This document shows positions 7,303-58,826 of a stretch of 64,000 nt of DNA, piece after piece (position 1 is the first letter of the stretch; every line of letters begins with the position of its first letter). A model generated the notes under the pieces. The model was not told where the DNA came from, searched no databases, and saw nothing but the letters and a program-made list of their open reading frames with translations. The position numbers and the translations under genes are program-made. Origin of the DNA: Rufibacter roseus (GTDB taxonomy: Bacteria; Bacteroidota; Bacteroidia; Cytophagales; Hymenobacteraceae). The DNA is taken from contig NZ_LRML01000003.1 in assembly GCF_001647285.1 (NCBI RefSeq), forward strand, positions 434,001 to 498,000, given 5' to 3'.

Positions 7303-7344
7303 GCCGTTTTAGGGCTGTTTTCTGAAAAACAGAGCTAAAACGGC
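7303..7344 (+). terminator. P1 palindrome serving as a terminator after the biotin carrier gene
   Basis: GCCGTTTTAGGGCTGTTTT and AAAACAGAGCTAAAACGGC flank a CTGA-type loop and are followed by TTTTTT. P1 denotes the dispersed palindrome whose ideal arms are GTTTTAGGGCTGTTTT / AAAACAGCCCTAAAAC; this copy has extra outer base pairs (GCC/GGC) that complete a classic terminator. Confidence 0.85.
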
Positions 7345-7383
7345 TTTTTTATGAAACAAACCTACTACTATATATAAGTGAGC

Positions 7384-8091
7384 ATGCAATACAAAAGAAT
7401 TCTATTGAAGCTGAGCGGTGAGTCCCTGATGGGGGAGCAACAGTATGGCATTGATACCAACATGCTGGTGCAGTACGCCGAAGAAATAAAATCTGCCGTT
7501 GACCTTGGCGCGCAAGTGGCCGTGGTGATTGGAGGCGGAAATATTTTCAGGGGCGTACAGGCCGAATCTGTTGGGTTGGACCGCGTGCAGGGAGACTATA
7601 TGGGAATGCTCGCTACAGTTATAAACAGCATGGCTCTGCAAAGTGCGCTGGAGAAAGTTGGTTTGTTTACCCGCTTACTTTCAGGCATTAACATTCAACA
7701 GGTGTGTGAGCCGTACATCCGCCGCCGGGCACTTCGCCACTTAGAGAAAGGCCGCGTGGTAATCTTCGGAGCCGGTATTGGCAGCCCCTACTTCACTACT
7801 GACTCAGCCGCTTCATTAAGAGCCATTGAAATTGAAGCTGACGTGGTGTTGAAAGGCACCAGAGTAGATGGCATTTATACCGCCGACCCAGAGAAAGACA
7901 GCTCCGCCACCAAGTACACAGACATCACGTTTGAGGAAGTTTTTGAGAAAGGCCTGAACGTAATGGACATGACCGCGTTTACCCTGTGCAAAGAAAACAA
8001 TCTGCCAATAGTAGTGTTTGACATTAACAAGCGCGGCAACCTGGCCAAATTGATAAAAGGCGATAAGGTGGGCACCTTGGTAACCATGTAA
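7384..8091 (+). CDS. pyrH: Uridylate kinase (UMP kinase)
   Basis: This hexameric amino-acid-kinase-fold enzyme phosphorylates UMP to UDP. The start [19 protein letters not shown] contains the family's phosphate-binding KLSGE motif; IGGGNIFRG and [13 protein letters not shown] are further signatures. From ATG 7384 it is 235 residues, the usual size; a GTG at 7378 would add two residues. It is followed by frr, the widespread pyrH-frr pairing. Confidence 0.96.
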
Positions 8092-8245
8092 GTTTACCAG
8101 AACTTAGTTACTTCCTGCTGCTGCTTTATAACTGGGGCAGCGCAAAAAAGTAGATTTTACAGAATAAAATCAGAAATTAGCACCGCCTTTTGGCTAACGC
8201 TGCGGCGGAATACTTTTTAGTCATCTTTCTAAAGAAGAAAACCCA

Positions 8246-8809
8246 ATGACCGAAGAAATTAATTTTTACTTGAGCGAAGCCGAAGAGTCTATGCAGAAAT
8301 CGGTGCAGCACACTAGCGTAGAGCTAACTAAAATCAGAGCCGGCAAAGCTTCACCAGCCATGGTAGAAGGCCTTAAAGTAGATTATTACGGCACCCCTAC
8401 CCCAGTTTCACAGGTAGCCAACGTATCTGCCCCAGATGCACGCACTCTTATGATTAAGCCTTGGGAGAAAAACATGATCTCTGAGATTGGCAAAGCCATT
8501 AAAAACAGTGATCTGGGCCTGAACCCTATGCAAGAAGCAGATGGAATTCGTTTGAACATTCCGGCCCTTACTGAGGAGCGCCGCCGCGAACTGGTGAAAC
8601 AAGCTAAAAACGAAACTGAGAACGGTAAAATCAGAGTGCGTAACATCCGAAAAGATGTGAATGATGCTCTGAGAAAGCTGCAGAAAGAAGGCACTTCTGA
8701 AGATGCGGTGAAAGACGCCGAAGGCAAAGTTCAGAAACTCACCGATGCCTATATTGTAAAGCTAGATGAGCTGCTCAGCAAAAAAGAAGCAGAAATCATG
8801 ACTATTTAA
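8246..8809 (+). CDS. frr: Ribosome recycling factor
   Basis: This 187-residue protein (family about 185) releases ribosomes from mRNA after termination together with EF-G. It has the conserved segments RAGKASPAMVEGLKVDYYG and the C-terminal half LNIPALTEERRRELVKQAK, followed by a long helical NIRKDVNDALRKLQKEG. It lies 154 bp after pyrH and is closed by a strong shared terminator. Confidence 0.97.
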   Translation: MTEEINFYLSEAEESMQKSVQHTSVELTKIRAGKASPAMVEGLKVDYYGTPTPVSQVANVSAPDARTLMIKPWEKNMISEIGKAIKNSDLGLNPMQEADGIRLNIPALTEERRRELVKQAKNETENGKIRVRNIRKDVNDALRKLQKEGTSEDAVKDAEGKVQKLTDAYIVKLDELLSKKEAEIMTI

Positions 8810-8846
8810 AAGAAGCGTTTTCAGCCTTTTTTTCAAAAATCAGCTC

Positions 8847-8895
8847 ATAAACAGAAAGCCCTGCTTTACTATCTAAAGCAGGGCTTTCTGTTTAT
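8847..8895. terminator. Bidirectional terminator between frr and a STAS-like gene
   Basis: A perfect 22-bp inverted repeat (core CAGAAAGCCCTGC / GCAGGGCTTTCTG) with a 5-nt loop (CTATC) separates two convergent genes. A/T-rich flanks on each side suit termination in both directions. Confidence 0.85.
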
Positions 8896-9547: not shown

Positions 9548-9593
9548 GGCGTGTTTTAGGCTTAGTTTTCAAAAACTAAGCCTAAAACACGCC
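9548..9593 (-). terminator. Perfect P1 palindrome, terminator after nadD
   Basis: This is the cleanest P1 copy: 22-bp perfect arms (core GTGTTTTAGGCTTAGTTTT) around a 2-nt loop. On the minus strand it is followed by TTTTTT, fitting a terminator of the gmk-nadD unit. Confidence 0.85.
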
Positions 9594-15836: not shown

Positions 15837-15874
15837 GCTTTAGGGCTGTTTTTCAAAAACTATCCCTTAAACAG
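15837..15874. repeat. P1 palindrome, imperfect copy
   Basis: GCTTTAGGGCTGTTTTTC followed by AAAAACTATCCCTTAAAC. The left arm is near consensus and the right arm is diverged. It lies between a glycosyltransferase start and the acyltransferase stop. Confidence 0.55.
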
Positions 15875-16823: not shown

Positions 16824-17084
16824 ATGGTGATGAGGTGGCTTTTTGATGTCTTTTGAAAATATAGGCCAAAAACGCTGTTATGCCTCAGGCCCCTGTGAAG
16901 ATCTAGCCCCTAATTTACTCATTTCCCTCTTTTCAACCATGCATGCGGAGTAATTACCTTTTTTAAGCAAGCCACTACTCATAGGTTATCAAAAGATTTG
17001 AAAGAAGATAAGTTTTAACAGATACCCTAATTGTCGCCCCTTTTCCCTCAGTAGAAATATAATCAACACCGCTCTACCCTTACA
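16824..17084. other. Intergenic region without a detectable gene
   Basis: About 260 bp between the acyltransferase start and the ahcY terminator. No ORF, RNA or repeat was identified by eye. Confidence 0.55.
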
Positions 17085-17123
17085 AAAAAACGCCCGGCCT
17101 CTTTATAGAAGCCGGGCGTTTTT
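17085..17123 (-). terminator. Terminator after ahcY
   Basis: AAAAACGCCCGGC and GCCGGGCGTTTTT pair around a 13-nt loop, with T-rich flanks on the minus strand, 38 bp past the ahcY stop. Confidence 0.88.
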
Positions 17124-17160
17124 ATATTCATTCCCAGAAAACAGGCCGGAAACAGAAATA

Positions 17161-18468
17161 TTAGTAACGGTAGTATTCTGGTTTGAATGGGCCTTCCACC
17201 TCTACGCCAATGTAGGCAGCCTGCTCTGGAGAAAGCTCTTCCAATTCCACCCCAATTTTAGACAAGTGCAGACGTGCTACTTTCTCATCCAGGTGCTTAG
17301 GCAGAGTGTATACTTTGTTCTCGTAAGCCTCAGCATTCGTCCAAAGTTCAATCTGAGCCAAGGTCTGGTTAGAGAATGAGTTAGACATCACGAAAGACGG
17401 GTGGCCAGTGGCGCAACCTAAGTTCACCAATCTACCTTCGGCCAGAACGATGATGTCTTTGCCATCAATGGTGTACAGGTCAACCTGTGGCTTAACAGTA
17501 TCTTTCGTGTGGCCGTAGTTTTCGTTCAGCCAAGCCATGTCAATCTCATTGTCGAAGTGACCGATGTTGCAGACAATAGCTTTGTCTTTCATGGCTTTGA
17601 AGTGCTCAGCCCGGATTATGTTAAAGTTACCAGTAGCGGTTACCACAATATCAGCCTCCGGAATAGCGTTCTCCATTCTCTTAACGGCAAAGCCGTCCAT
17701 AGCAGCTTGCAGGGCGCAGATTGGGTCAATCTCCGTTACAATAACACGGGCACCGGCACCACGCAATGAAGCGGCAGAACCTTTTCCTACGTCACCATAG
17801 CCCGCCACAACAGCTACTTTACCAGCCATCATCACATCAGTGGCACGGCGGATAGCATCTACCAATGACTCTTTACAGCCGTATTTGTTGTCGAATTTAG
17901 ATTTGGTTACCGAGTCGTTCACGTTGATAGCCGGCATTAACAAGGTGCCATTTTTCATACGCTCGTACAGACGGTGCACACCCGTGGTAGTCTCTTCAGA
18001 CAGACCTTTGATGCCAGCGGCTAACTCAGGGTATTTATCAAACACCATGTTGGTCAGGTCACCACCGTCGTCCAGAATCATGTTCAATGGCTTGCGGTCT
18101 TCTCCGAAAAACAAAGTCTGCTCAATGCACCAGTCAAACTCCTCGGCGGTCATACCTTTCCAGGCATATACCGGAATACCGGCGGCGGCAATGGCAGCTG
18201 CGGCGTGGTCTTGGGTAGAGAAGATGTTGCAGGAAGACCAGGTTACCTCGGCACCAAGCGCTACCAATGTTTCAATCAAAACGGCAGTCTGGATAGTCAT
18301 GTGCAAGCAACCGGCAATACGGGCTCCCGCCAAAGGCTGGCTGGCACCGTACTCTTCCCGAATGGCCATCAAGCCCGGCATTTCGGCCTCAGCCAATTTA
18401 ATCTCTTTTCTTCCCCAATCGGCAAGGGAAATATCTTTTACTTTGTACTTCAAATACGTTTCTACCAT
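17161..18468 (-). CDS. ahcY: Adenosylhomocysteinase (S-adenosylhomocysteine hydrolase)
   Basis: This 435-residue NAD-dependent enzyme splits S-adenosylhomocysteine into adenosine and homocysteine, relieving product inhibition of methyltransferases. Visible motifs are the N-terminal [20 protein letters not shown], the NAD-binding [10 protein letters not shown] (near residue 222), and the C-terminal segment ending [10 protein letters not shown], as expected for the family. A good phylum-type promoter lies 27-57 bp upstream of the start. Confidence 0.98.
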
Positions 18469-18542: not shown

Positions 18543-18578
18543 GTTATAGGCTTATTTTCTGAAAAACAGCCCCAAAAC
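18543..18578. repeat. P1 palindrome
   Basis: GTTATAGGCTTATTTTCT followed by GAAAAACAGCCCCAAAAC. It lies upstream of ahcY rather than at a gene end, so it is not a terminator of either neighbour. Confidence 0.7.
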
Positions 18579-18650: not shown

Positions 18651-18697
18651 TAATTCCTAATTCCTAATTCCTAATTCCTAATTCCTAATTCCTAATT
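18651..18697. repeat. 7-bp tandem repeat (TAATTCC, 6.7 copies) directly before a start codon
   Basis: Six perfect TAATTCC units plus TAATT, ending 7 bp before the ATG at 18705. The same unit (5.7 copies) precedes the ATG at 37921. Confidence 0.95.
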
Positions 18698-18704: not shown

Positions 18705-19880
18705 ATGCTCAGCCCAGCGGAACGCGATTTCATTGCCCAGCACCTTTCTTCCGACACCGCCCAGCTGGTACTGCAAGGCAAAAAGTGGCCTGAGCTGGAT
18801 GTTCCTAAACTGGCGCAGCAAATACGGGCGAGGCAAAAAGCTAAAGGAAAACTTCCCCTGTGGGCGTCAAACCTAAACCTTGTTTTTCCGGCTAACCTGT
18901 CTGTGGAGCAAAGTTCCTCTGACATCACCGCCGCTTATAAAGCTAAGATAGTGCAGGGCCAGATACTGGCAGACTTGACTGGTGGTTTTGGGGTCGACTC
19001 TTTCTATTTTGCCCAAAGGTTTGACAAAGTGTTTTACGTGGAACATCAGGCTGAACTGGCGCAAACTGTCGCCTATAACTATGAGCAGCTAGAAGTAAAG
19101 AATATTGAGGTACACTCAACTAAGGCAGAAGATTTTCTGCAGGGCTTGACTGATCCCGTAGATGTCATTTACCTGGACCCCGCCCGCCGTGGGCAGAGCC
19201 AAGAGCGTGTGCACCTGCTGCAAGATTGCGAACCAGATGTATTGAACTTGCTGCCGCTGTTGCTTCAGAAAAGTAAGAAGGTGCTGCTTAAAACCGCTCC
19301 TATGCTAGATGTAGATTTAGCTTTGCAAGACCTTAGTCAGGTAGGGCAGGTGTGGGTAGTGGCGGTACAGAACGAAGTAAAAGAAGTGCTGTACCTGCTA
19401 TCTTCTGAGGCTACAGACGCACCCACCATCACAGCCGTGAATCTGAGGCCAGATCAGCTGCCGCAGGAAATCAGCTTTACCAAAGCTCAGGAAGAAAAAG
19501 CCAATGCCACCTTTTCTGACCCGCAGCGCTTCCTGTACGAACCTAACACTGCCCTTCTGAAAGCGGGCGCTTATAAGTGGTTAAGCCAGGAATATGGGCT
19601 GCACAAGCTGCACCGCAACAGCCATCTGTATACCTCCACTGAGTTGTGCGAGGTATTTCCGGGCCGAATTTTCGAAATCACGGCAAAACCGAAAACCAGC
19701 GCCAAAGAATTACAGAAGCTCCTGCCACTCAAAAAAGCGAATATTACCGCCCGTAATTATCCATTATCGGTTGCGCAATTGCGCGATAAACTGAAGCTGA
19801 AGGAAGGCGGCTCTGACTATCTTTTTGCCACTACTGATATGCACAACAAGCCAATACTTCTGCTTTGCCAGAAAGTGTGA
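18705..19880 (+). CDS. Class I SAM-dependent methyltransferase, THUMP-like family
   Basis: This 391-residue protein has a Rossmann methyltransferase core (LADLTGGFGVDSFYFAQ for SAM binding, DVIYLDPARRG for the DPAR catalytic-type motif) and a C-terminal THUMP-like domain ending in a KPILLLCQK strand. The DPARR motif resembles RNA base methyltransferases, but the target is unknown. The start codon follows a TAATTCC tandem repeat by 7 bp, so translation may depend on repeat number. It is divergent from ahcY. Confidence 0.85.
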   Translation: MLSPAERDFIAQHLSSDTAQLVLQGKKWPELDVPKLAQQIRARQKAKGKLPLWASNLNLVFPANLSVEQSSSDITAAYKAKIVQGQILADLTGGFGVDSFYFAQRFDKVFYVEHQAELAQTVAYNYEQLEVKNIEVHSTKAEDFLQGLTDPVDVIYLDPARRGQSQERVHLLQDCEPDVLNLLPLLLQKSKKVLLKTAPMLDVDLALQDLSQVGQVWVVAVQNEVKEVLYLLSSEATDAPTITAVNLRPDQLPQEISFTKAQEEKANATFSDPQRFLYEPNTALLKAGAYKWLSQEYGLHKLHRNSHLYTSTELCEVFPGRIFEITAKPKTSAKELQKLLPLKKANITARNYPLSVAQLRDKLKLKEGGSDYLFATTDMHNKPILLLCQKV

Positions 19881-19892: not shown

Positions 19893-19931
19893 CTGTTTTA
19901 GGCTTATTTTCAGGAAAACAGCCCCAAGACA
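19893..19931. repeat. P1 palindrome after the methyltransferase gene
   Basis: CTGTTTTAGGCTTATTTTC followed by AGGAAAACAGCCCCAAGACA, 13 bp past the stop codon. No long T run follows, so termination is uncertain. Confidence 0.7.
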
Positions 19932-20332: not shown

Positions 20333-20394
20333 ATACCCTTCACAACAAGAGAGCCTGCCCAACTTTGGGCAGGCTCTCTTGTTGTGAAGGGTAT
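20333..20394. terminator. Long perfect bidirectional terminator
   Basis: A 28-bp perfect inverted repeat (core GAGAGCCTGCCC / GGGCAGGCTCTC) with a 6-nt loop (AACTTT) between two convergent genes. Confidence 0.88.
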
Positions 20395-21509: not shown

Positions 21510-21536
21510 AGTTGGTAGAGTAGTAAGGTAATACAT

Positions 21537-21570
21537 TTTAGGGCTGGTTTTGTTAAACCAGCCCCAAAAC
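21537..21570. repeat. P1 palindrome, near-perfect
   Basis: TTTTAGGGCTGGTTT and AAACCAGCCCCAAAA around TGTT. It lies in the short space between two co-oriented minus-strand genes. Confidence 0.75.
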
Positions 21571-22281: not shown

Positions 22282-22589
22282 TTAAAATCAAGAGAAAAGT
22301 AAGACGGCAAGCCTAATACAAATACAATGCTAAAACTCTTTCGGCTCCGAAAAAGTTACGCACCTTCTGCCCATCCCTTTACCTTCCTACTTTCTGATTC
22401 TTGCCTGTTTTCGAGAAAACAGCCCTAAAACAGCCTCGTTTTTCTTCTTCCTTCAAGGTTCTAAAAAAGAAAATAGATTACTGTTTCCAACGGGTTAAAT
22501 TAATGCAGTCTGAAAAATTTAAACCGTCCGCTTCCACGGTTCACAGCTATTTGACTTTACAGGCTACACCAATCTGTTGACTTCCCGTC
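22282..22589. other. Intergenic region with a half P1 element
   Basis: The 308-bp space holds a shortened P1 copy (22403-22432) and otherwise no ORF or RNA recognised by eye. Confidence 0.55.
22403..22432. repeat. P1 palindrome, short copy
   Basis: CCTGTTTTCGAG followed by AAAACAGCCCTAAAACAG. The right arm is consensus; the left arm is truncated to CCTGTTTT. Confidence 0.65.
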
Positions 22590-25371: not shown

Positions 25372-25379
25372 TACCTTTG
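25372..25379 (+). promoter_or_regulatory. Predicted -7 element for the cobalamin-riboswitch transcript
   Basis: TACCTTTG matches the TAnnTTTG consensus. It lies just 5' of the first paired elements of the riboswitch; no clear TTG -33 element was found. Confidence 0.5.
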
Positions 25380-25382
25380 CGC

Positions 25383-25556
25383 CGCTAATGGTGACTGCCC
25401 CGGCCTTCTGCCGGTAACGTCTTAATAGGGAATCAGGTGAGAAACCTGAGCTGTTCCCGCAACTGTTATCTTCACAATATTCTGCCCACCACATGCCACT
25501 GTCTGCTTTGCCAGATGGGAAGGCCGGGCCGGAGAAGAGAGCCAGGAGACCTGCCA
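25383..25556 (+). ncRNA. Cobalamin (vitamin B12) riboswitch
   Basis: The sequence has the conserved blocks in order: GGTAAC then AATAGGGAATCAGGTGAGAA, CCTGAGCTGTTCCCGCAACTG, TGCCACTG, GGGAAGGC, and the B12 box GCCAGGAGACCTGCC at 25541-25555. Variable helices lie between them. Adenosylcobalamin-type riboswitches of this form lower expression of B12 transport genes when B12 is plentiful. It precedes the TonB-receptor gene by about 120 bp, in which a GC-rich stem (AGCCCCACC / GGGTTGGC region, 25603-25623) followed by T-rich sequence may act as the expression platform. Confidence 0.95.
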
Positions 25557-25676
25557 TTGCACCACTTAACCTGGAGGCTTTCGGGAAAAAAGCAGCAAGG
25601 ATGGTAGCCCCACCGTGGGTTGGCGTTTTCGTTTATTTCTTCCTTTGTAGTCTCCTCTGCTCTTTAAGCTGAGGAA

Positions 25677-28685: not shown

Positions 28686-28726
28686 GCTGTTTTTGCCCTA
28701 GTTTTATAAGAACAGCCCTAAAACAG
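28684..28726. repeat. P1 palindrome whose right arm is part of a larger hairpin
   Basis: AAGCTGTTTTTGCCCTAG followed by AAGAACAGCCCTAAAACAG. The right half is also the outer left arm of the 30-bp inverted repeat at 28709-28772, so two alternative foldings are possible. Confidence 0.75.
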
Positions 28727-28772
28727 AAGAGGCCGCCCCTGTGGGCGGCCTCTTCTGTTTTAGGGCTGTTCT
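28709..28772. terminator. Bidirectional terminator built from a P1 arm
   Basis: A perfect 30-bp inverted repeat (inner core AGAGGCCGCCC / GGGCGGCCTCT, outer arms AGAACAGCCCTAAAACAG and its complement) with a 4-nt loop (CTGT) between convergent genes. Confidence 0.88.
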
Positions 28773-30066: not shown

Positions 30067-30098
30067 GTTCTTTTTTGTAGTTATCCAGAAGACGAGCA

Positions 30099-30152
30099 TT
30101 TTGGGCTTGTTTTCTTAAAAAGGCCCGAGAAACAGACTCGGGCCTTTTGCTT
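30099..30152 (+). terminator. Terminator with an overlapping P1 half-element
   Basis: AAAAGGCCCGAG and CTCGGGCCTTTT (30117-30148) around AAACAGA form a stem followed by T-rich sequence. The upstream TTTTGGGCTTGTTTTC is a P1 left arm. Confidence 0.82.
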
Positions 30153-30167
30153 TTTATTCTTTCTTTA

Positions 30168-30328: not shown

Positions 30329-30382
30329 TTAGGCAAGAAAGTAGCTTTACCGTATCTTCGCACCTCCAGAAATGTTACGCTT

Positions 30383-31006: not shown

Positions 31007-31007
31007 C

Positions 31008-31298: not shown

Positions 31299-31435
31299 AC
31301 TAATTCTGACAGGGCCACGTTTAAACAATGTAGCTACACGTTTTTTGCCGTCTACTTGCAAGCCTCCAATATTCTGTATTCATTTGCCAGAGGTCTTATC
31401 AAGCCAGTATTTTCCAGAATTTAGATTCGCCTCTT

Positions 31436-32512: not shown

Positions 32513-32526
32513 TATTATATATTCTA

Positions 32527-34202: not shown

Positions 34203-34244
34203 AGTTTAGCCTTATTTTCTGTAAAACAGGGCCAAAATAAGAAC
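34203..34244. repeat. P1 palindrome after Csp copy 2
   Basis: AGTTTAGCCTTATTTTCTG followed by TAAAACAGGGCCAAAATAAG, directly before the terminator stem at 34242. Confidence 0.65.
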
Positions 34245-35557: not shown

Positions 35558-37795
35558 ATGGCAACCTTAACAAAAGATAAACCAGCCATAAAAAACACTT
35601 TTCCGGTAGAGGGCATGACCTGTGCAGGCTGCGCTGTGAGTGTAGAAAGTATGCTGCAGTCACAGACCGGCGTACAAAGCGCCGCCGTGAATTTCGCTAA
35701 CAAAACCGTGCTGGTAGAATACGCCCCAGGCACTGATCTATATAAACTGCAGCAGGCCCTGCAAAGCGTGGGCTATGACATTCTGCTTAAAAAAGAAGAA
35801 GCCACCCAAGAGGCGCAGGAAGCCAGAGAACAAGAAGCCTATGCACAAATAAAGACGAAAACTCTTTGGGCATGGCTGCTTTCTTTGCCCGTCTCAATCA
35901 TAGGCATGTTTTTCCACGATTGGCAAAGGGGACAGTGGGCTATGCTGGTACTTACTTTGGCTGTAGTCTTCTGGTTTGGCCGAAACTTCTATGTAAACGC
36001 CTTTAAGCAAGCCCGCCACGGCAAAGCCAACATGGACACGCTCGTGGCATTGAGCACTGGCATAGCTTTTCTGTTCAGCGCCTTCAACACAATCTATCCT
36101 GAATTTTTTCTGAGCAGAGGCTTAGAGCCGCATGTGTATTATGAAGCTTCAGCCTTGATAATCGCTTTTATTTTATTGGGTAAACTTCTGGAAGAAAGGG
36201 CAAAATCCCGCACCAGTGGCGCCATAAAAAAGTTGATGGGCTTGCAGCCAAAATCTGTGAAAGCGCTTCGGAACGGGCAGGAAATGGAACTGCCTATTGA
36301 AGAAGTGCTGGTAGATGACATCCTGCTTATTAGGCCCGGGGAAAAAATTCCGGTAGACGGACGCGTGGTCACGGGCTCTTCTTTCTTGGATGAGAGCATG
36401 ATCAGCGGCGAGCCGATTCCGGTGGAGAAAAAGGCAGGAGATCAGGTTTTTACCGGTACCATTAACCAGAAAGGGAGCTTGCAGATTGCAGCGGAGAAAG
36501 TAGGTTCTGAAACGCTGCTGGCCCAGATTATCAAAATGGTGCAAGAAGCGCAGGGCTCTAAAGCCCCCGTGCAGAAACTCACTGATAAAGTGGCCGGAAT
36601 CTTCGTGCCGGTGGTGATAGTGATTTCTTTGGTCAGTTTCGCGACCTGGTACTTTGTGGGAGGTGAAAACAACTTCTCTCATGCCTTGATGGCTATGATT
36701 ACGGTGCTGATTATTGCCTGCCCTTGTGCCCTGGGCCTGGCTACGCCTACCGCTATTATGGTGGGTGTGGGACGCGGAGCCGAGAACTGTATACTGATAA
36801 AAGACGCGGAAAGCTTAGAGACGGCGCATAAACTCACCGCTGTGGTGCTGGACAAAACCGGCACCATTACCAAAGGCAAACCTGAGGTAACCGAGCTGCA
36901 ATGGAACCTGCCGCCAGAAGAGAAAGGATCTGTAGAAGCTGTTTTGCTGGCCATGGAAAACCAAAGTGAGCACCCACTGGCCGAAGCCGTGTCCATGCAC
37001 CTGACCAAATTGGGCGTGAAGGCCGCTCAACTGGAGCAGTTTGAAAGTATTACCGGCCGCGGTGTGCAGGCGCAGTACAAAGGCCACTCCTTTTGGTTGG
37101 GTAACGAGAAGCTGATGCAGGAGAACAACCTCCGTTTTTCGGCTGATTTCGAAAAAACAGGGCAAAAACTGAAAGCTCAAGCCAAAACCGTAGTATATGC
37201 AGGAACGCAGGGGCAGGTGGTGGCGCTCATTGCCATAGCCGATGCCATCAAAGAATCATCAGCGCAAGCCATCAAAGACCTACAGCAGTTAGGCCTGAAC
37301 GTGTATATGCTCACCGGCGACAATGCCCAAACCGCCGCTGCCGTTGCGCAGCAAGTAGGCCTGCAGCACTACAAGGCTGAGGTAATGCCTCAAGACAAAG
37401 CTGATTTCATTCAGGAGCTGCAGCGCCAGGGGCAAGTAGTAGGTATGGTGGGCGACGGAATCAATGACTCTCAGGCTCTGGCTCTGGCTGATGTAGGAAT
37501 TGCCATGGGCCGAGGCACCGACATTGCCATGGACGTAGCCAAAATCACGCTCATGCATTCAGACTTGAAAGCCATTGCCAAGGCAATAAAACTGAGTAAA
37601 GCCACCGTGCGCACCATTCACCAGAACCTGTTCTGGGCCTTTATTTACAACGTGATTGGCATACCCGTAGCCGCCGGACTGCTCTACCCTATTTGGGGCT
37701 TTTTGTTAGACCCAATGTTTGCCGGTGCCGCCATGGCTTTAAGTTCCGTTTCAGTAGTCACCAACAGTTTACGGCTACGTTCGTTAAAATTGTAA
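35558..37795 (+). CDS. copA: Copper-translocating P1B-type ATPase
   Basis: From ATG 35558 this 745-residue inner-membrane pump exports Cu(I). Domains in order: one HMA domain ([17 protein letters not shown]), membrane helices, actuator domain, CPC metal-site helix ([15 protein letters not shown]), phosphorylation motif DKTGTITKG, the N-domain HP motif in SEHPLAEAV, and hinge [20 protein letters not shown]. The TTG 27 bp upstream is a less likely start. A P1-like sequence lies within the N-domain coding region (37134-37170). It is followed by a tandem-repeat leader and a CopZ-like gene. Confidence 0.95.
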
Positions 37796-37877: not shown

Positions 37878-37917
37878 TAATTCCTAATTCCTAATTCCTA
37901 ATTCCTAATTCCTAATT
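37878..37917. repeat. 7-bp tandem repeat (TAATTCC, 5.7 copies) directly before a start codon
   Basis: Five TAATTCC units plus TAATT, ending 3 bp before the ATG at 37921. It is the same unit as at 18651-18697, 19 kb away, with a different copy number. Confidence 0.95.
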
Positions 37918-38858: not shown

Positions 38859-38897
38859 CTGCTTTTGGCCTACTTCCTGAAAAACAAGCCTAAACAG
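38859..38897. repeat. P1 palindrome between convergent genes
   Basis: CTGCTTTTGGCCTACTTCC followed by TGAAAAACAAGCCTAAACAG. It lies between the stop of 38326-38853 and the stop of the calcium-type ATPase, a natural terminator site. Confidence 0.7.
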
Positions 38898-41699: not shown

Positions 41700-41738
41700 C
41701 TGTTTTTACGCCGGTTTCGAAAAAATAGCTTTAAAACA
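41700..41738. repeat. P1 palindrome after the YciI gene
   Basis: CTGTTTTTACGCCGGTTTC followed by GAAAAAATAGCTTTAAAACAG, ending 4 bp before the stop of the YciI gene (minus strand), at a terminator position. Confidence 0.65.
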
Positions 41739-41742
41739 GCGG

Positions 41743-42030
41743 TTACTCCAATAACCCTTTCATGCCGTCTTCGGCTCTGGAGGTAACAAATTCCACCACC
41801 CGGCACTCCACTAAATCTTGGTATACGAATGGGTCATTTTGCATGAGTTCCTCTATTTCCGCCCTGCTAGTAGCTTTGCAGATAATCAGTCCGCCGTCAC
41901 GTGGAACCTTTCGGCCGGAGGCCAGGAAATGACCGGTGGTGTAATGCTTTTCTACAAAGGCCATGTGCTCGGCCATGAACGGTTCAATTTCAGAGAAAGG
42001 CGCTTTATAGGTGAGTTCAATCAGGAACAT
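41743..42030 (-). CDS. YciI-family protein
   Basis: This 95-residue protein has the ferredoxin-like YciI fold: FLIELTYKAP at the start, AEHMAFVEKHYTTGHFLASG with the conserved His and SG, and GGLIICKATSRAEIEELMQN. The family is widespread and mostly of unknown function; some members act as dehydrochlorinase-like or oxidative decay enzymes. A P1 element lies on either side of the gene. Confidence 0.85.
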   Translation of the reverse strand: MFLIELTYKAPFSEIEPFMAEHMAFVEKHYTTGHFLASGRKVPRDGGLIICKATSRAEIEELMQNDPFVYQDLVECRVVEFVTSRAEDGMKGLLE

Positions 42031-42069: not shown

Positions 42070-42109
42070 GCGTTTTCGAACTATTTTTCAAAAAACAACC
42101 CTAAAACAG
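42070..42109. repeat. P1 palindrome upstream of the YciI gene
   Basis: GTGCGTTTTCGAACTATTTT followed by CAAAAAACAACCCTAAAACAG. It also lies just past the stop of the DUF748 gene on the minus strand. Confidence 0.65.
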
Positions 42110-43287: not shown

Positions 43288-43363
43288 TGGCGCAAGCGTC
43301 CGCTTGTGTCCGCATGCATTTCTGTTCTGCTATGCGTGCGGACACAAGCGGACGCTTGCGCCA
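43288..43363. repeat. P2 inverted repeat, copy A (76 bp)
   Basis: Arms TGGCGCAAGCGTCCGCTTGT... and ...ACAAGCGGACGCTTGCGCCA pair over 32 bp with one mismatch and a 12-nt loop. P2 names this element; related copies are at 45830-45905 and 52338-52410. It lies in the space between divergent genes. Confidence 0.93.
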
Positions 43364-43441: not shown

Positions 43442-43481
43442 TTCGTTTTTGACCTGTTTTCAGAAAAACAGCTCCAAAACA
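43442..43481. repeat. P1 palindrome upstream of the radical SAM gene
   Basis: TTCGTTTTTGACCTGTTTTC followed by AGAAAAACAGCTCCAAAAC. No gene end lies next to it, so it is not a terminator of a neighbouring gene. Confidence 0.7.
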
Positions 43482-43555: not shown

Positions 43556-45763
43556 TTGGCTACCGCTCCTAAAATTCTGCTCATTACGCCGCCGCTCACG
43601 CAGCTCAACACGCCCTACCCCGCCACGGCCTACATCAAAGGCTTTTTGCGCGGACGCGGGTTTGACGTAACGCAGGCAGATTTTGGGCTGGAGCTGGTAC
43701 TGCGGCTGTTCTCACGTAAAGGACTGCAGCAGGTGTTTCAGACAATTCTGGACGGAGCGTATGATTTGTCAGACAACAGCCAGCGTATGCTGCGCTTGCG
43801 CAAGTCTTATCTGGACACCATTGAGCCGGTTATCAAGTTCTTGCAGGGCCGCGACAGCACCTTGGCGCACCCAATTGCCATGGGTGCCTATTTACCCGAG
43901 GCCAGTCGCTTTCTGCAGTTGGCAGATTTGGAAGAAGCTTTCGGGACGATGGGCATTTCAGACAAAGCCCGTCACCTGGCTACGCTTTACTTAGAAGATT
44001 TAGCCGATTTAATAAAAGAGACCGTTTGCCCGCATTTCGGTTTTAGCCGCTACGCCGATAAACTGGCCATGAGCGCCACTTCGTTTGACCCGCTGGAGGA
44101 AGAACTGCAAACGAAGCCAAATCTGGTAGACCAAATGCTACTGGATATTCTGGACGAACGTCTGCAGGAGGCCCAACCCGATGTAGTTGGTTTCTCCGTT
44201 CCGTTTCCGGGTAACCTGTACGGTGCGCTGCGGCTGGCGCAGTTCATCAAGCAGAAGTACCCGCACATTAAAACGCTCATGGGCGGCGGCTACCCCAATA
44301 CTGAATTAAGAACCCTACGCGAGCCGCGCATTTTCAAGTACATTGACTACATCACCTTAGATGATGGTGAGGGTCCGTGGTTAAAGCTACTGGAGCATTT
44401 TCAGGGGCAGCGTCACGTGGAACAGCTGCAGCGCACGTTCCTTTTCCTAAATGGAGAAGTACAATACATCAACGGCTCCGCCGATGCTGATATTCCGCAC
44501 ACTGAGGTGGGCACTCCAGACTACAGCGACTTGAAGATACACGAGTACCTGAGCGTGGTGGAGGTGCTGAACCCCATGCACCGCCTCTGGAGCGACGGCC
44601 GCTGGAACAAACTCACCGTAGCCCACGGCTGCTACTGGAAACGCTGCTCTTTCTGTGACATCACTTTAGATTACATATCCCGCTACGAAGCCGCTCCCGC
44701 CACTTTGCTGGTAGACCGTATTGAGCAGATTATTGCTCAAACGGGACAGACAGGTTTCCATTTTGTAGATGAAGCCGCTCCACCCTTGGCGTTGCGTGAT
44801 TTGGCCATTGAACTGCTGCGCCGGGGCGTGAAGATTACGTGGTGGGGAAACATCCGTTTCGAAAAAACCTTCTCCGCTGATTTGTGCCGCCTGCTGGCTG
44901 CCAGTGGTTGTATTGCCGTATCGGGTGGATTGGAAGTGGCCTCTGATAGGCTGCTGGCGAAGATGGAGAAAGGCGTGAGCATTGCCCAGGTGGCACGGGT
45001 GACACGCGACTTCACGGCTGCCGGCATCATGGTGCACGCGTATTTAATGTACGGTTTCCCTACCCAGACCGCGCAAGAAACCATAGACTCTCTGGAGGTA
45101 GTGCGGCAGCTGTTCGAGCAAAACGTGATTCAGAGTGGCTACTGGCACCGCTTCTCAATGACCGCCCACAGTCCCGTTGGCAAGAACCCAGAAAAATATG
45201 GCGTTGTAAAAGTGGGTCCCGAGCCTGGTCTCTTTGCCGACAATGATTTGTGGCACGACGACCCTAAAGGCGCTGACCATGAACTTTACGGCGCTGGCCT
45301 AGCGAAAGCACTGTACAACTACATGCACGGCATAGGACTAGAGGAACCGCTTTCGTTCTGGTTTGAATTTAAGGTTCCGCGCGTGTCGCTACCTAAAAAT
45401 ATGATAGCCCAGGCGGTAGAAGCCATTGGCAAACCAGATTCTGAGAAGCAGAACCTGCGCGTGCTGTGGCTGGGAAATGCGCCTGAAATAGAAGTAGTGA
45501 CCAAAACCAAAAAAGGTCGTACCTTCCAGAATGCCCTTCTCACGTTTGTGGAGAAAACCGAAGAATACGAAATCCGCACCTCGCCCGAGGTGGGCCAATG
45601 GCTGCACACTTGGCTTACCAGATTGTCAGAAGATTTAGGTACCAAGTTCCTGCTCAAGGATATGGCCACAGATTATCCAGAAGGACAGATGTTTACTTTT
45701 CAGGAGTTCCTGATTACAGATACTTGGCTGGAGCTGCGTGAGCGGGGACTGTTGATCGTCTAA
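43556..45763 (+). CDS. B12-binding-domain radical SAM protein
   Basis: This 735-residue enzyme starts at TTG 43556. An N-terminal cobalamin-binding-like domain (PDVVGFSVPFPGNLYGALRL and LMGGGYPNTE near residues 205-250) is followed by a radical SAM core with the cluster motif HGCYWKRCSFCDI (Cys359, Cys364, Cys367, spacing C-x4-C-x2-C). Downstream core strands follow (FVDEAAPPLAL, WWGNIRFEKTFS, GGLEVASDRLLAKMEKGVS). B12-dependent radical SAM enzymes often methylate unactivated carbons or make tetrapyrrole or natural-product precursors. No biosynthetic neighbours were found, so the substrate is unknown. Confidence 0.88.
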   Translation: MATAPKILLITPPLTQLNTPYPATAYIKGFLRGRGFDVTQADFGLELVLRLFSRKGLQQVFQTILDGAYDLSDNSQRMLRLRKSYLDTIEPVIKFLQGRDSTLAHPIAMGAYLPEASRFLQLADLEEAFGTMGISDKARHLATLYLEDLADLIKETVCPHFGFSRYADKLAMSATSFDPLEEELQTKPNLVDQMLLDILDERLQEAQPDVVGFSVPFPGNLYGALRLAQFIKQKYPHIKTLMGGGYPNTELRTLREPRIFKYIDYITLDDGEGPWLKLLEHFQGQRHVEQLQRTFLFLNGEVQYINGSADADIPHTEVGTPDYSDLKIHEYLSVVEVLNPMHRLWSDGRWNKLTVAHGCYWKRCSFCDITLDYISRYEAAPATLLVDRIEQIIAQTGQTGFHFVDEAAPPLALRDLAIELLRRGVKITWWGNIRFEKTFSADLCRLLAASGCIAVSGGLEVASDRLLAKMEKGVSIAQVARVTRDFTAAGIMVHAYLMYGFPTQTAQETIDSLEVVRQLFEQNVIQSGYWHRFSMTAHSPVGKNPEKYGVVKVGPEPGLFADNDLWHDDPKGADHELYGAGLAKALYNYMHGIGLEEPLSFWFEFKVPRVSLPKNMIAQAVEAIGKPDSEKQNLRVLWLGNAPEIEVVTKTKKGRTFQNALLTFVEKTEEYEIRTSPEVGQWLHTWLTRLSEDLGTKFLLKDMATDYPEGQMFTFQEFLITDTWLELRERGLLIV

Positions 45764-45765: not shown

Positions 45766-45804
45766 CTGTTTTTGACTTGTTTTCAGCAAAGTAAGCCGGA
45801 AACG
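45766..45804. repeat. P1 palindrome after the radical SAM gene
   Basis: CTGTTTTTGACTTGTTTTC followed by AGCAAAGTAAGCCGGAAACG, 3 bp past the stop codon; arms are diverged. Confidence 0.55.
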
Positions 45805-45829: not shown

Positions 45830-45905
45830 TGGCGCAAGCGTCCGCTTGTGTCCTCATGCATTCCTGTGTTGCTATGCGTGCGGACACAAGCAGGCGCTTG
45901 TGCCA
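45830..45905. repeat. P2 inverted repeat, copy B (76 bp)
   Basis: TGGCGCAAGCGTCCGCTTGT on the left and ACAAGCAGGCGCTTGTGCCA on the right. The right arm has three changes against copy A; the loop region (TCATGCATTCCTG...) is clearly related to that of copy A. Confidence 0.93.
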
Positions 45906-48205: not shown

Positions 48206-48244
48206 TTGTTTTTAAGCTAGTTTCTGAAAAACAGGCTAAAAAAG
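48206..48244. repeat. P1 palindrome upstream of the GNAT gene
   Basis: TTGTTTTTAAGCTAGTTTC followed by TGAAAAACAGGCTAAAAAAG, in the space between the divergent GNAT and paoA genes. Confidence 0.65.
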
Positions 48245-52337: not shown

Positions 52338-52410
52338 TGGCGCAAGCGTCCGCTTGTGTCCAACTATACTAGATTAGGAATACCGCGGACACAAGCGGAC
52401 GCTTGCGCCA
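52338..52410. repeat. P2 inverted repeat, copy C (73 bp)
   Basis: Perfect 24-bp arms TGGCGCAAGCGTCCGCTTGT(GTCC) and (GGAC)ACAAGCGGACGCTTGCGCCA enclose a 25-nt loop whose sequence (AACTATACTAGATTAGG...) differs completely from copies A and B. Confidence 0.95.
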
Positions 52411-52418: not shown

Positions 52419-52458
52419 CTGTTTTTGGCCTACTTTTGAAAAAACAGGCTAGAAACAG
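52419..52458. repeat. P1 palindrome directly after P2 copy C
   Basis: CTGTTTTTGGCCTACTTTTG followed by AAAAAACAGGCTAGAAACAG, between P2 copy C and the end of the minus-strand lipoprotein gene. Confidence 0.72.
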
Positions 52459-53586: not shown

Positions 53587-53640
53587 AAGCCCGCTGATTT
53601 AAGCTTGTTTTTCAGAAAACATGCCTAAAACAGCGGGCTT
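53587..53640 (-). terminator. Terminator of uvrB with a P1 palindrome nested inside
   Basis: AAGCCCGCTG and CAGCGGGCTT are outer arms (53587-53596, 53631-53640); between them sits TTAAGCTTGTTTTTC and AGAAAACATGCCTAAAA, a P1 element. On the minus strand it is followed by TTTTTT. Confidence 0.85.
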
Positions 53641-55771: not shown

Positions 55772-55811
55772 GCGTTTTTGGGCTGTTTTTCTGTAAATAA
55801 ACGAAAAACGC
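55772..55811. repeat. P1 palindrome upstream of uvrB
   Basis: GCGTTTTTGGGCTGTTTTTC followed by TGTAAATAAACGAAAAACGC, just before the hairpin at 55807. Confidence 0.6.
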
Positions 55812-56434: not shown

Positions 56435-58018
56435 TTATTTATATATACGCCATTTGCTACCTATACTAAGTCCAAACTGAAAAGCATTGGGTTGACTTTC
56501 GCTTTCTTTCAGGAAAGGGGTAAGGGCATAGGTTACCTCTGGCGCCACCATAACACTAACTTTATCATTAAGCTCGTACCCTAACCCTACTGAAGTAACT
56601 GAAAAACACTGCCATGACCTGAAGGGAGAGTTTTCATTTCCAAACTCATAGTGCACTGTCTCCAGCTGATTATTTTGGGGCGTAATGCTGTTTTTCAGCA
56701 ATAGATTCAAGTTAACTCCGCCAGAGGCATAGGCAAAGAACTTGCTCAAGTCATGCCTGTACCCAATCCGGACTGGCAACCCTACTTGCTGGTATCGGTA
56801 CTGGGTGGTGTAGGTATCTGATTTAGAAACAGAAACAACATTGCCTGTTTGGTATTGAGCAACATTATTAAATATTGGTTCTGCTCTGAGCACTGCCAAC
56901 CGGTTTGACATTTGGTCAGTACTGGTGCTGTTTATAACATAGGAATGAGTGGTGGTGGCCACATTTTCAGCGTATAGAAGGCCACTTTCAACATGCCACT
57001 TATCATTGATGCTGTAGCTTGCACCCAATCTGGCGCTGTAAGAATATGACGGACTATAGCTCTGGTTAAACTCACGCATTGCCTTTTGGTACTCTTGGTA
57101 TACCTGAGGTTGGGCAGCAGACAGTTCAGTAAAGGAAGCCGGCGCCATACTTCCTTCATTTAGTTTTATGGGGGAATAAGCATATTGGGGAGCATACGCA
57201 AGCGAAAGGCTCCACTTAGAGACCTCAGCGACGGCAGGGCTTATTTCTTTTCTCTCTGCGGCTGTTTGGGCTAACAATTGATCAGGGCTGCTTTTCCGTA
57301 AGAGCAATGTACCCGGTTTTTCTTCTGCCGCAGAGTCTGCTTTTGTAACAACTCCACCTGAAAGTCCATTTAATGCCGTAACGCTACTTGCTGTAGCAGG
57401 ATTTACTGGTGCTGCTACAGCCAATTCTGCTTCTAAGCCAGTAGATGATTTTGAGCCTGAGTTAGAATTTGAATCTATTTTTACCTGGGCTATTACTTCC
57501 TCTGTGGGTTCAAAGCCTGGCGCCGTTTCCTTCACTTGGCTACTACTTCCTTTCTTAACTTGGTCAACAGTGGCAATTGCTTTTTCCCCCCTCAGCACTT
57601 CTCTAGTGTTTTTAGCCTGTTTTTCAGAAAACGGACCTGAAACAGACGCTAATCCTTCGTCTACATAATCTGAAGAAACGCCACCGTTCGCCACAGATTT
57701 CTTTACTCTTTGATTTAGTTCCAGCTTATTGCTTTGCTCTTTAGATAAAGCTACTGTGCCTTCAGACACTAGGTCTAATCCATCATTACTGTTCCACAAG
57801 AAAGCCCCTGCAGATACCAGGAGCAACAAAATAGCCGCAGCGGCAGCCCTATACCAGAACACTTGGCCCCGGTACTTTTTCAGCTCCTGGTTTTCCAGCT
57901 CCCGATTCAGGTTTTCCCAAATCTTGCTAGAGGGTGTACTCTCCGCTCCTTCAAAGCCCTCTCTGAAAATATCTTCCAAAGAAGGATCGTGCTTTTCCTC
58001 AGCCGATAACTTTTTCAT
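56435..58018 (-). CDS. Single-pass membrane protein with C-terminal outer-membrane-type beta-barrel domain
   Basis: This 527-residue protein begins with a cytoplasmic acidic region containing LEDIFREGFEGAESTPSSKI and a membrane helix (about residues 55-76, AAAAAILLLLVSAGAFLW). A long low-complexity linker (about residues 77-290) follows, then a beta-barrel-like domain (SLAYAPQYAYSPIKL, YSARLGASYSINDKWHVES, FQFGLSIGSKWRIYK). It starts 20 bp inside the sigma factor gene, so it may be its membrane anti-sigma or sensor partner. A P1 repeat is encoded in frame within the linker (57608-57647). Confidence 0.75.
   Translation of the reverse strand: MKKLSAEEKHDPSLEDIFREGFEGAESTPSSKIWENLNRELENQELKKYRGQVFWYRAAAAAILLLLVSAGAFLWNSNDGLDLVSEGTVALSKEQSNKLELNQRVKKSVANGGVSSDYVDEGLASVSGPFSEKQAKNTREVLRGEKAIATVDQVKKGSSSQVKETAPGFEPTEEVIAQVKIDSNSNSGSKSSTGLEAELAVAAPVNPATASSVTALNGLSGGVVTKADSAAEEKPGTLLLRKSSPDQLLAQTAAERKEISPAVAEVSKWSLSLAYAPQYAYSPIKLNEGSMAPASFTELSAAQPQVYQEYQKAMREFNQSYSPSYSYSARLGASYSINDKWHVESGLLYAENVATTTHSYVINSTSTDQMSNRLAVLRAEPIFNNVAQYQTGNVVSVSKSDTYTTQYRYQQVGLPVRIGYRHDLSKFFAYASGGVNLNLLLKNSITPQNNQLETVHYEFGNENSPFRSWQCFSVTSVGLGYELNDKVSVMVAPEVTYALTPFLKESESQPNAFQFGLSIGSKWRIYK
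57608..57647. repeat. P1 palindrome inside a coding region
   Basis: TGTTTTTAGCCTGTTTTTC followed by AGAAAACGGACCTGAAACAG lies in frame in the linker of the 56435-58018 gene and encodes VSGPFSEKQAKN. Confidence 0.8.
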
Positions 58019-58574
58019 GATATTTACCTTTTAACCGCACCACCGCTTGCCGTAAGCTGGCTCTGGCACGGGAGTATTGTGACTTAGAAGTACTTTCTGT
58101 GATGTCTAACATCTCTCCAATCTCTTTGTGGGAATATCCTTCAATGGCATATAAATTGAACACCGCCTGATACCTTGGCGGTAATTCCCTCACCAACTGC
58201 AATAGCTCTTCATAGCCATACTTACTGTCTAAGCTCTCTTGCTCTGAGGCTTCGTCCCACTCATCTTCTTGGGCCGTGACAGAAAGATGTCCGTTGCTGC
58301 GCTGGTGCTTCAGGGCTGTGTTGATGACAATTCTTTTAATCCAGAATTCTATGGGGCACTCTCCTTTAAAATTTTTAATATACATGAAAACCTTCAGGAA
58401 AGCATCTTGCAGAATGTCTTCCGCCTCAAAATCGGTGCGGGCATACCGTTTACTCACCGCCAACATTTTACCGGCATACCGCTGGTAAAGCTGGTGCTGA
58501 GCTTCTCTTTTTCCGGCTACAGCCCCTTTTATCAGGTCTGCTTCGGATGACTTTTGTGGCGAGAGAATTTTCAA
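57999..58574 (-). CDS. ECF-type RNA polymerase sigma factor
   Basis: This 191-residue sigma factor has region 2 with LYQRYAGKMLAVSKRYART, EAEDILQDAFLKVFMYIKNF and FWIKRIVINTALKH, and region 4 with LPPRYQAVFNLYAIEGYSHK and GEMLDITESTSKSQYSRARA. It overlaps the 3' membrane/beta-barrel gene by 20 bp (stop and start interleaved), which points to translational coupling and a sigma/regulator pair. Confidence 0.92.
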   Translation of the reverse strand: MKILSPQKSSEADLIKGAVAGKREAQHQLYQRYAGKMLAVSKRYARTDFEAEDILQDAFLKVFMYIKNFKGECPIEFWIKRIVINTALKHQRSNGHLSVTAQEDEWDEASEQESLDSKYGYEELLQLVRELPPRYQAVFNLYAIEGYSHKEIGEMLDITESTSKSQYSRARASLRQAVVRLKGKYHEKVIG

Positions 58575-58730
58575 CGGATGTAAAATATCGTCATCTAACA
58601 GTAAGAGCCCTCGGCAACGGCAAAGGTTGCATGACTAAATCTTTGCCTGCATTTTTTTTGCAAAAGAACTTCAACGCTTAAAGGTATAGACAAACTAACT
58701 TCACCTCTCCCCCTATACAATAGATACAAA

Positions 58731-58762
58731 AAAAGCTGCATTGCTCTAACAATGCAGCTTTC
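58731..58762 (-). terminator. Terminator after aroE
   Basis: AAAGCTGCATTG and CAATGCAGCTTT pair around a 6-nt loop and are followed on the minus strand by TTTTTTT. It separates aroE from the sigma factor gene downstream. Confidence 0.85.
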
Positions 58763-58778
58763 ATGACATTAGACTGTG

Positions 58779-58826
58779 AACTCTGTTTTAGGCTTACTTT
58801 TCAAAAAATAAGCCTAAAACAGAGTT
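58779..58826. repeat. P1 palindrome overlapping the aroE stop codon
   Basis: AACTCTGTTTTAGGCTTAC and ATAAGCCTAAAACAGAGTT are near-perfect arms (one mismatch) and include the last bases of the aroE stop codon (58825-58827). Confidence 0.85.

Follow-up and report, generated by a model that had tools for sequence, protein, structure and literature searches.

The window analysed here is a 64,000-nt stretch of the Rufibacter roseus genome (G000), along which a palindromic repeat, P1, recurs between genes and sometimes inside them. The copies are as follows, with the strand where one was assigned and with members of the mechanical scan list marked as such.

7306..7341: P1 (scan); gap between genes 6799-7296 (+) and 7384-8091 (+); consensus 30/32, pairing 14/16
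8817..8852 (+): degenerate P1, by eye; 3' of ribosome recycling factor gene 8246-8809; overlaps hairpin 8847-8895
9553..9588: P1, perfect palindrome (scan); same gap has P1 in 11 of 15 genomes
15837..15872: P1 (scan); flanking gene pair adjacent in G000 only
16839..16873: P1-like but weak, with a 3-nt centre (scan)
17118..17153 (-): degenerate P1; 3' of S-adenosylhomocysteine hydrolase gene 17161-18468; overlaps terminator hairpin 17086-17123
18543..18578: P1 (scan); divergent gap between 17161-18468 (-) and 18705-19880 (+)
19895..19930: P1 (scan); 14 nt 3' of gene 18705-19880
21535..21570: P1 (scan); in G000 only, among 14 genomes with the same gene pair
22396..22431: P1 (scan)
28689..28724: P1 (scan); 3 nt 3' of gene 27651-28685; overlaps perfect 30-bp-arm hairpin 28709-28772
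30098..30132: P1 (scan); 3' arm also the 5' arm of terminator stem 30118-30148; T-/A-tracts intact
34203..34238: P1 (scan)
37134..37169: P1 inside P-type ATPase gene 35558-37795 (scan); P1 at these codons in G013 and G007
38859..38897: degenerate P1; after gene 38923-41568 (-); outside the scan list
41702..41737: P1 (scan); 5 nt after gene 41743-42030 (-)
42072..42107: P1 (scan); at the apparent same place G013 has two P1 around 3.1 kb and G007 has one
43445..43480: P1 (scan); divergent gap, 75 nt upstream of start 43556
45768..45803: P1 (scan); 4 nt after gene 43556-45763
48209..48243: P1, centre 3 nt (scan)
52421..52456: P1 (scan); adjoins inverted pair 52339-52409 of a different element, P2
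53596..53631: P1 at the tip of terminator-like outer stem 53587-53640 (scan)
55774..55809: P1 (scan)
57608..57643: P1 within ORF 56435-58018 (-), encoding a protein with an outer-membrane-barrel domain (scan)
58785..58820: P1 (scan)

Eleven of the 12 copies located in a preliminary description of this DNA are in the scan list; the other, 38859-38897, is weaker, gave a half-arm match and can be seen in the G000 row of an alignment. Several positions are shared across the genus. The gap after the ribosome recycling factor gene holds a scan-positive P1 in 11 of 15 genomes, G000 not among them, and inspection by eye shows an element like the degenerate P1 of 17118..17153 at the same place in 15 of the 16 genomes, all but G012. 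Downstream of the stop of gene 27651-28685, P1 is scan-positive at 3-5 nt in 12 of 15 genomes and degenerate, by eye, in the other three.

The repeat is real. A single mechanical scan of the window found 22 copies, whereas 10 shuffles together gave 1, the enrichment over shuffled sequence that had been anticipated, and half-arm matches at up to three mismatches numbered 35 (chance mean 4.3, largest chance value 12). In G000 there are 240 copies per 864 kb scanned, and 353 half-sites at one mismatch. P1 is a 36-bp dyad of the form GTTTT-n7-TTTT-n4-AAAA-n7-AAAAC, that is, an inverted pair of 16-bp half-sites separated by 4 bp and carrying four T/A tracts, which lie about 11 bp apart within each arm. 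Both arms are conserved to an equal degree. Of 174 good copies, 166 have a centre of 4 nt, within the few nucleotides already described. Half-sites do not stand alone: 54 of 55 near-perfect ones are inside palindromes. Control patterns in which the T-tracts were kept and the middle permuted also match, 5 times within genes and 127 times elsewhere, which would be expected if P1 has its core in the tracts.

P1 lies mostly in permissive DNA, at gene ends and in convergent gaps. Using a home-made gene caller, we found it in 207 of the 489 G000 gaps that are at least about 40 nt long, so that its placement in 'most intergenic spaces' was too strong a statement. Presence falls from convergent (50/73) through tandem (139/337) to divergent gaps (18/79, with 20 copies), and within tandem gaps P1 lies a median 45 nt after the stop. 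Both placements first reported, at gene ends and upstream of starts, were seen, the latter at 18543 and 43445 in divergent gaps. Only 16 of 226 copies in G000 are in genes, although genes cover about 85% of two 400-kb stretches of this genome. Across 32 stretches of the G012 chromosome there are about nine P1 per 20 kb (mean 9.0), with no visible trend between origin and terminus. Regular spacing was considered and found no support: in G000 P1 is no more evenly spaced than a gene-based control, and in G012 it is uneven over a contiguous 200 kb (CV 1.47, one 30-kb gap). Any depletion of P1 in acquired DNA is weak; stretches of G012 with low GC have 1 and 5 P1 per 20 kb, and one stretch of normal GC also has 5.

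The gene-end bias, together with the copies that abut terminator hairpins or make up their tip, would fit a terminator that is specific to the lineage and active in both directions, or an RNA hairpin at 3' ends. A separate terminator was also recognised less often, by a home-made finder, at gene ends with P1 (43 of 208) than at those without (63 of 239). We nevertheless consider this reading quite improbable. P1 does not appear to be a terminator, because there is no clear G.U excess, there is no U-tract and copies occur inside genes, one of which is murD-like and belongs to a row of 13 genes on the same strand. On the sense strand, G.U and A.C pairs number 174 and 162 in 193 oriented copies, with a lean towards G.U in the tandem copies alone (138 against 111 A.C), and downstream of 143 tandem copies the T fraction is 0.24-0.38 from the fourth position on. 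Furthermore, P1 is alike in both orientations, it occurs in divergent gaps, and in 24 of the 43 gene ends that have both P1 and a separate terminator it is the terminator that comes first. Intrinsic terminators combine a stem with a U-tract and conserve RNA pairing; P1 has no U-tract and shows little covariation.

The same conclusion emerges from covariation, which also bears on the earlier claim that base pairing is kept between arms. Copies were picked by their constant positions only, and pairing in the variable columns was compared with that of swapped arms. In G000 the excess is modest (52.3% against 46.3%, z 6.0; column 6, z 7.2), but it is not clear in G005, G012 or G013 (z 0.5, 0.3 and 1.9), nor is it at two orthologous P1 sites (z 0.3 and 1.0). 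As the arms vary almost independently, the apparent compensation mostly reflects a symmetric consensus; the absence of compensatory substitutions, named beforehand as a result that would count against the family, is thus largely what we observed. Outer stems scoring at least 8 surround 7% of 229 copies, against 0.2% with swapped flanks. Long outer stems of this kind suggest insertion of P1 into terminator loops, a reading that we considered.

Genes carry 16 copies in the 864 kb, where 40 column-permuted patterns gave a mean of 0.05. No indel was found at P1 in the P-type ATPase gene (35558-37795) among 15 aligned proteins of the genus. In a Chorismate_bind gene a relaxed scan places P1 at the same codons, to within 1 nt of register, in 15 of 16 species, and seven outgroup proteins have the linker with no P1-length gap. 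In these two genes, then, P1 adds no residues to the protein, and in the coding cases examined it appears, from the alignments, to evolve by point mutation and not by insertion. Of 21 P1 in G013, 18 are matched by one at the colinear position in G007 (read from the alignment; two others aligned to a paralogous copy). Between these two genomes at least two of the 21-22 copies are in one genome only, with indel-like length differences of at least 50 nt.

P1 had been described as a REP-like family, and as far as placement is concerned this holds, since the gene-end bias resembles that of REPs in the portion of PMC3733652 available to us. The mechanism does not follow. A REP/REPIN or MITE-like palindrome moved by a Y1/RAYT enzyme in repeated insertion waves in each species would account for the few presence/absence differences between G013 and G007, and G000 does have six Y1_Tnp matches. 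All six are on other contigs, a result that answers the suggested whole-genome search and bears out the statement that no RAYT transposase is nearby, as the window has no Y1_Tnp match. Y1_Tnp genes also occur in genera without P1, whereas in G007, which carries 20 P1 in 40 kb, nothing matched Y1_Tnp at E 0.001. Among ten RAYT-like loci of the genus, P1 lies no more than 500 nt from the Y1 match at six, in a setting where P1 is common generally, but at none is it within 500 nt on both sides (L108 falls short by 19 nt, and the other-side copy at L076 is degenerate). No GTAG-type tag (GTAG/GTGG or CGTC) was found within 15 nt of P1, only a symmetric CT/AG. At L076 it is P2, a different inverted element, that flanks the RAYT-like gene on both sides; P1 lies between the halves of a P2 inverted pair at 3 of the 10 P2 places listed, two of which adjoin a RAYT-like gene, and P2 fits the REP/RAYT role here better than P1.

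P1 shares with REP/REPIN-RAYT systems, as partly described in PMC3733652 and PMC6006769, short palindromes that number in the hundreds and sit where convergent or tandem genes end, with some in genes; it differs in that it lacks a GTAG/CGTC tag, a demonstrated RAYT link and, in the coding cases examined, insertion. P1 is unlikely to be a REP, because the coding copies examined show no insertion, and we regard REP/RAYT movement as an improbable main account. The palindromic elements of Rickettsia, in the same part of PMC3733652, are likewise retained in protein-coding genes, but they interrupt those genes and add residues, whereas P1 adds none in the cases examined.

P1 marks a single genus. 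Compared with other genera, it was confined to Rufibacter, so its presumed lineage specificity was confirmed. Within the genus it is homogenised to the dialect of each species, while many positions are common between species, and at least three clear dialects exist among 16 genomes. Matches to the G005 form, GTTTAGSGGCTGTTTT (1 mismatch), number 2,136 in G005 itself, against 2-448 in the 15 other genomes. For the G012 form, GTTTTSGGGCTCATTT, the figures are 1,978 in G012 and 6-43 in each of the others. When four half-site models, each trained elsewhere in its own genome, were tested on a shared 40-kb region, the own-genome model fitted its own half-sites best of the four in 24/32, 31/36, 37/42 and 25/30 cases. 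A change of dialect can affect only one arm of a shared site, which argues against repeated insertion and also against gene conversion of whole elements, as such sites keep their own background. In G015 one segment (C1:455180-455371) carries the dialect of another species. A per-column conservation test on genome pairs yielded 1-6 sites per pair, too few to rely on.

Dialect-like changes also seem to extend into the codons of MurD. G012 has a scan-positive P1 there in its own dialect, and reads E-M-S-P-K-T where G000 has E-I-C-P-K-I. In G005, ATTAG at two sites, both degenerate and under the scan threshold, gives Arg in place of the L, I, F or V found in the 15 others, and Ser is encoded by AGC where the five other Ser-bearing species use TCN.

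We tentatively favour, at a little below an even chance, the view that P1 is a recognition signal in double-stranded DNA, that molecular drive has spread it, and that it is probably uptake-like. P1 would be read genome-wide in double-stranded DNA by a putative symmetric (dimeric) DNA-binding machine of Rufibacter whose specificity may shift from species to species. Sites would follow this reader by base substitution, with DNA in the current dialect being favoured. The most likely motor would be drive of the uptake-sequence type: if kin DNA with good sites were preferentially taken up or recombined, sites would accumulate wherever coding and promoter constraint permits, and no single site need be useful. 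Double-strand reading is consistent with equally conserved, nearly independent arms, with the lack of a clear G.U excess and with the pairing of almost all half-sites. The modest covariation in G000 and the excess of outer stems are not predicted by a pure double-strand signal. The comEC and dprA families were found in G000, but this says little, because ComEC is also present in 10 and DprA in 11 of 14 control genomes.

In copy number, dialects, point mutation in coding cases and under-representation in coding DNA, P1 resembles an uptake sequence. HIP1 of cyanobacteria, a short octamer-based palindromic word, is likewise very abundant and characteristic of its lineage; no function is known for it, and it differs from P1, which is 36 bp long and has dialects. 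The closest parallels are the DUS dialects of Neisseriaceae and the USS of Pasteurellaceae, given in the portions of PMC3630211 and PMC7811141 available to us as 9-12-bp motifs that are not obligate inverted pairs. According to the same portions, these too have thousands of copies, dialects, point mutation in place of insertion and a use of permissive intergenic DNA, DUS forming inverted pairs near terminators and USS having AT tracts. They differ in that a short motif stands as a single copy, whereas P1 is a longer, obligately symmetric dyad, mostly intergenic and in Bacteroidota.

The main rival to such an uptake-like signal, doubtful in our estimation, is that P1 is the site of a symmetric nucleoid or topology protein, or of a gyrase-type enzyme, acting where supercoils meet, at the ends of genes. 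In a chromosome-organising role of this kind, dialects would track changes of the putative protein and each site would be kept by ordinary selection. The rise in P1 presence from divergent through tandem to convergent gaps, the dyad with its T/A tracts about 11 bp apart in each arm and the chromosome-wide density in G012 are all compatible with it. Against it, some 2,000 interchangeable sites (an extrapolated figure) would each need selection to hold the dialect, even in codons. A driven or self-marking signal apart from uptake, such as a Chi-like sequence, a self motif of a defence system or a substrate for P1-P1 recombination, appears very improbable. Dialect turnover would suit it, as would the 3.1-kb segment between two P1 in G013, since at the corresponding place G007 has one P1, and its outer flanks are similar to the two outer ones in G013. 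This is a single case of recombination, however, and its two P1 differ from each other.

Literature searches listed no report of the P1 repeat. Dispersed palindromes at gene ends should be tested for covariation and insertion before being filed as REPs or terminators. Within the Bacteroidota, Riemerella columbina and R. anatipestifer reportedly prefer their own DNA, and the part of PMC7965970 available to us offers candidate k-mers and no established signal. It is possible, though somewhat short of an even chance, that Rufibacter has a symmetric 36-bp uptake or self-recognition signal, spread by drive, with species dialects that reach into essential-gene codons and a putative symmetric receptor. 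An uptake or self-recognition system of such a kind is not yet established in Bacteroidota, and P1, if it is an uptake signal, would be a testable one in that phylum. If P1 organises the chromosome instead, its density and its speed of evolution would be unusual for such a site. The 16 genomes, with their dialects, form a comparative set for finding the reader protein, and the same set may allow us to ask whether molecular drive alone can force substitutions on essential genes.

The preliminary description had expected the dispersed 36-bp palindrome P1 to be enriched over shuffled sequence, and this was borne out, as the window contains 22 copies and the same scan of ten shuffled windows together returned one. 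In two 400-kb stretches plus the window of G000 (the genome containing the window), 240 copies matched at least 13 of the 14 constant arm positions, versus 1 in the shuffle, and extrapolation would place the whole-genome total near 1,400. The constant part of P1 is GTTTT-n7-TTTT-n4-AAAA-n7-AAAAC, with arm middles that lean toward NRRSYTR. A single exact form had 44 matching stretches in a species-level genome collection, every one from Rufibacter records. With one mismatch, the half-site (one arm of the palindrome) occurs 8 to 1,069 times in each of 15 other members of the genus. Across 43 genomes outside the genus its count is 0 to 11, and that of a backward-read control 0 to 9. The palindrome scan outside Rufibacter covered one genus, that of G017, in which 100 kb held one match and no comparable family was seen. 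One perfect copy was also observed in a 39-kb viral contig.

Among the gaps of G000 that measure about 40 nt or more, P1 is found in 50 of 73 between convergent genes, 139 of 337 between tandem genes and 18 of 79 between divergent genes; where the genes are in tandem, it lies a median of 45 nt from the upstream stop. Called genes contain 16 of the 226 copies with a 4-nt centre, whereas 40 column-permuted patterns give a mean of 0.05. These context figures were drawn from 17% of G000, with gene and terminator calls made by home-made scripts and a simple gene caller. Along the chromosome of G012, another member of the genus, 32 stretches carry a mean of 9.0 copies per 20 kb (range 1 to 14).

P1 is not mainly a hairpin. 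Among 193 oriented copies, non-Watson-Crick pairs comprise 174 G.T/T.G and 162 A.C/C.A (138 vs 111 in tandem gaps, 36 vs 51 in convergent gaps), and both arms of tandem copies fit the consensus to a similar degree (13.0 and 12.8 of 16). In a covariation test, 3' arms were swapped among copies and the pairing of variable columns was compared. For the 240 copies of G000, pairing fell from 52.3% to 46.3% (z 6.0), mainly through column 6 (z 7.2) and more weakly through 7 and 9. No clear pairing excess was seen in the genus members G005 (99 copies, z 0.5), G012 (100, z 0.3) and G013 (49, z 1.9), or when species were compared at two orthologous sites (z 0.3 for 14 sequences, 1.0 for 15). The suggestion that pairing between arms is kept is thus not confirmed, the excess being modest in G000 and not clear elsewhere; because swapping arms hardly lowers pairing, the arms act mostly as two half-sites obeying one consensus. 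A minority of the G000 copies, 7% of 229 (0.2% with swapped flanks), have outer stems scoring 8 or more and look like terminator tips. Against the proposed terminator role, oriented copies have no downstream T-run, and G.T and A.C pairs are near parity. Close to terminators, P1 often lies between the stop and the stem, but the terminator precedes P1 in 24 of 43 gene ends that have both.

The half-site consensus is GTTTAGGGGCTGTTTT in G005, GTTTTCGGGCTCATTT in G012 and GTTTTTGGCCTGTTTT in G013, with a similar spelling in the genus member G007. In whole genomes, at one mismatch, the G005 form occurs 2,136 times in G005 vs 2-448 in 15 others, and the G012 form 1,978 times in G012 vs 6-43 in 15 others. 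Four models of these species-specific dialects were trained on sequence from outside a shared region and tested on half-sites inside it; the own-genome model fitted best in 24/32 (G005), 31/36 (G012), 37/42 (G013) and 25/30 (G000), and the G013 model fitted 31/40 in G007, which was not in training. Density also differs, with 5 copies in 40 kb of the genus member G015 vs 21 in G013, and such differences may reflect a maintaining activity that has weakened in certain lineages. At G015:C1:455180-455371, a perfect G012-dialect half-site pair stands with a third half-site 140 bp off, though the G015 dialect differs; transfer is possible.

Inheritance of sites was compared in 15 relatives around window 7161-47161 (84-87% identity to G000 in the gene compared; for G012, 77% over a longer stretch). 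Past the stop of gene 27651-28685, the scan placed P1 beginning 3-5 nt downstream in 12 of 15 genomes, and degenerate copies are visible in the remaining three. By our reading, 18 of the 21 G013 copies in 40 kb are matched at a colinear place in G007, these being the most similar pair of those compared in like orientation. The G000 copy at window 21535 is present in one of 14 genomes. At the apparent place of window 42072, 3.1 kb lies between two P1 copies in G013 (29716-32919 of the 40-kb region); G007 has a single copy (29387) apparently at the same place, its left flank resembling that left of the first G013 copy and its right flank that right of the second. This one case may be P1-P1 recombination or coincidence.

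Copies inside three coding genes were also compared. In a P-type ATPase gene (window 35558-37795), the P1 region is gap-free in an alignment of 15 genus proteins, and G013 and G007 carry P1 at the same codons as G000. In a Chorismate_bind gene (G000:C12:247569-248792), a relaxed scan of 16 species found P1 at the same codons in 15, its register shifting by no more than 1 nt; the 3' arm of the G005 copy is spelled in the G005 dialect, and the linker recurs in seven outgroup proteins with no gap of P1 length. Two sites in a murD-like gene were compared across 16 genomes. In G012 a copy that passes the scan carries AAATGAGCCCGAAAAC, the dialect of that genome. In G005, one site reads GATTAGAGCC and encodes Arg at a position that is Leu, Ile, Phe or Val in the other 15 genomes; the second reads GATTAGCGCC, in which Ser is AGC, against TCN in the five other species that have Ser. 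The first arms match the G005 dialect, yet both sites are degenerate and under the scan threshold. These cases show that substitution in place can both create P1 and shift it, and that a single arm may change while the remaining site retains its background. They speak against transposition, and against whole-element copying, as the sole process. Separately, P1 occurs twice within the ComEC-family gene G000:C12:358446-360587 itself, at 358754 and 360328.

Six Y1_Tnp matches were found in G000, five of them labelled RAYT-like by size and weak score; a search of G007 at E 0.001 gave none. Of ten fetched RAYT-like loci of the genus, six have P1 no more than 500 nt from the Y1 match; none has it at that distance on each side, though two come close. 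Another inverted element, P2, consists of inverted pairs of GGCGCAAGCGTCCGCTTGTG (17 matches in 864 kb, allowing up to 3 mismatches), placed as follows.

Places of P2 in the window and at the fetched locus L076
Window 43289-43362: P2
Window 45831-45904: P2
Window 52339-52409: P2
L076 899-1078: P2, on one side of the RAYT-like gene L076 1252-1809
L076 1879-2065: P2, on the other side of the same gene

P2 looks like a REPIN-type element and, since it lies on both sides of the L076 gene, is a better REPIN candidate than P1. The earlier view of P1 as a REP-like family is weakened by substitution in place in coding copies and by the occurrence of RAYT-like genes in other genera without P1; P1 does lie within the P2 pair at 3 of 10 P2 places shown, and some connection with P2 or RAYTs may exist. 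Other elements of the window include short arrays of the 7-bp unit ATTCCTA directly upstream of start codons (18653-18694 and 37880-37914), with near-identical matches in several Rufibacter genomes; a cobalamin riboswitch (25372-25572) upstream of the gene at 25677 for a TonB-dependent receptor; and, where two genes converge (20333-20394), a perfect inverted repeat of 29 bp that encloses a 4-nt loop and is unrelated to P1.

We consider it very probable that P1 is a recognition signal in double-stranded DNA that for the most part evolves in place, a core common to two readings. The favoured one, though tentative, is that P1 serves uptake or self-recognition and is spread by molecular drive; a chromosome-organising site is the less likely of the two. 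Uptake sequences, in the relevant passages of PMC7811141, change through point mutation and are under-represented where DNA is new or constrained, and those of PMC3630211 describe dialects and inverted pairs near terminators. P1 resembles uptake sequences in its abundance and dialects, in changing by substitution in place and in keeping to permissive DNA; its strict dyad sets it apart from the signals in these passages. G000 encodes ComEC and DprA families, as do most control genomes. The strict dyad suggests that the reader would be symmetric.
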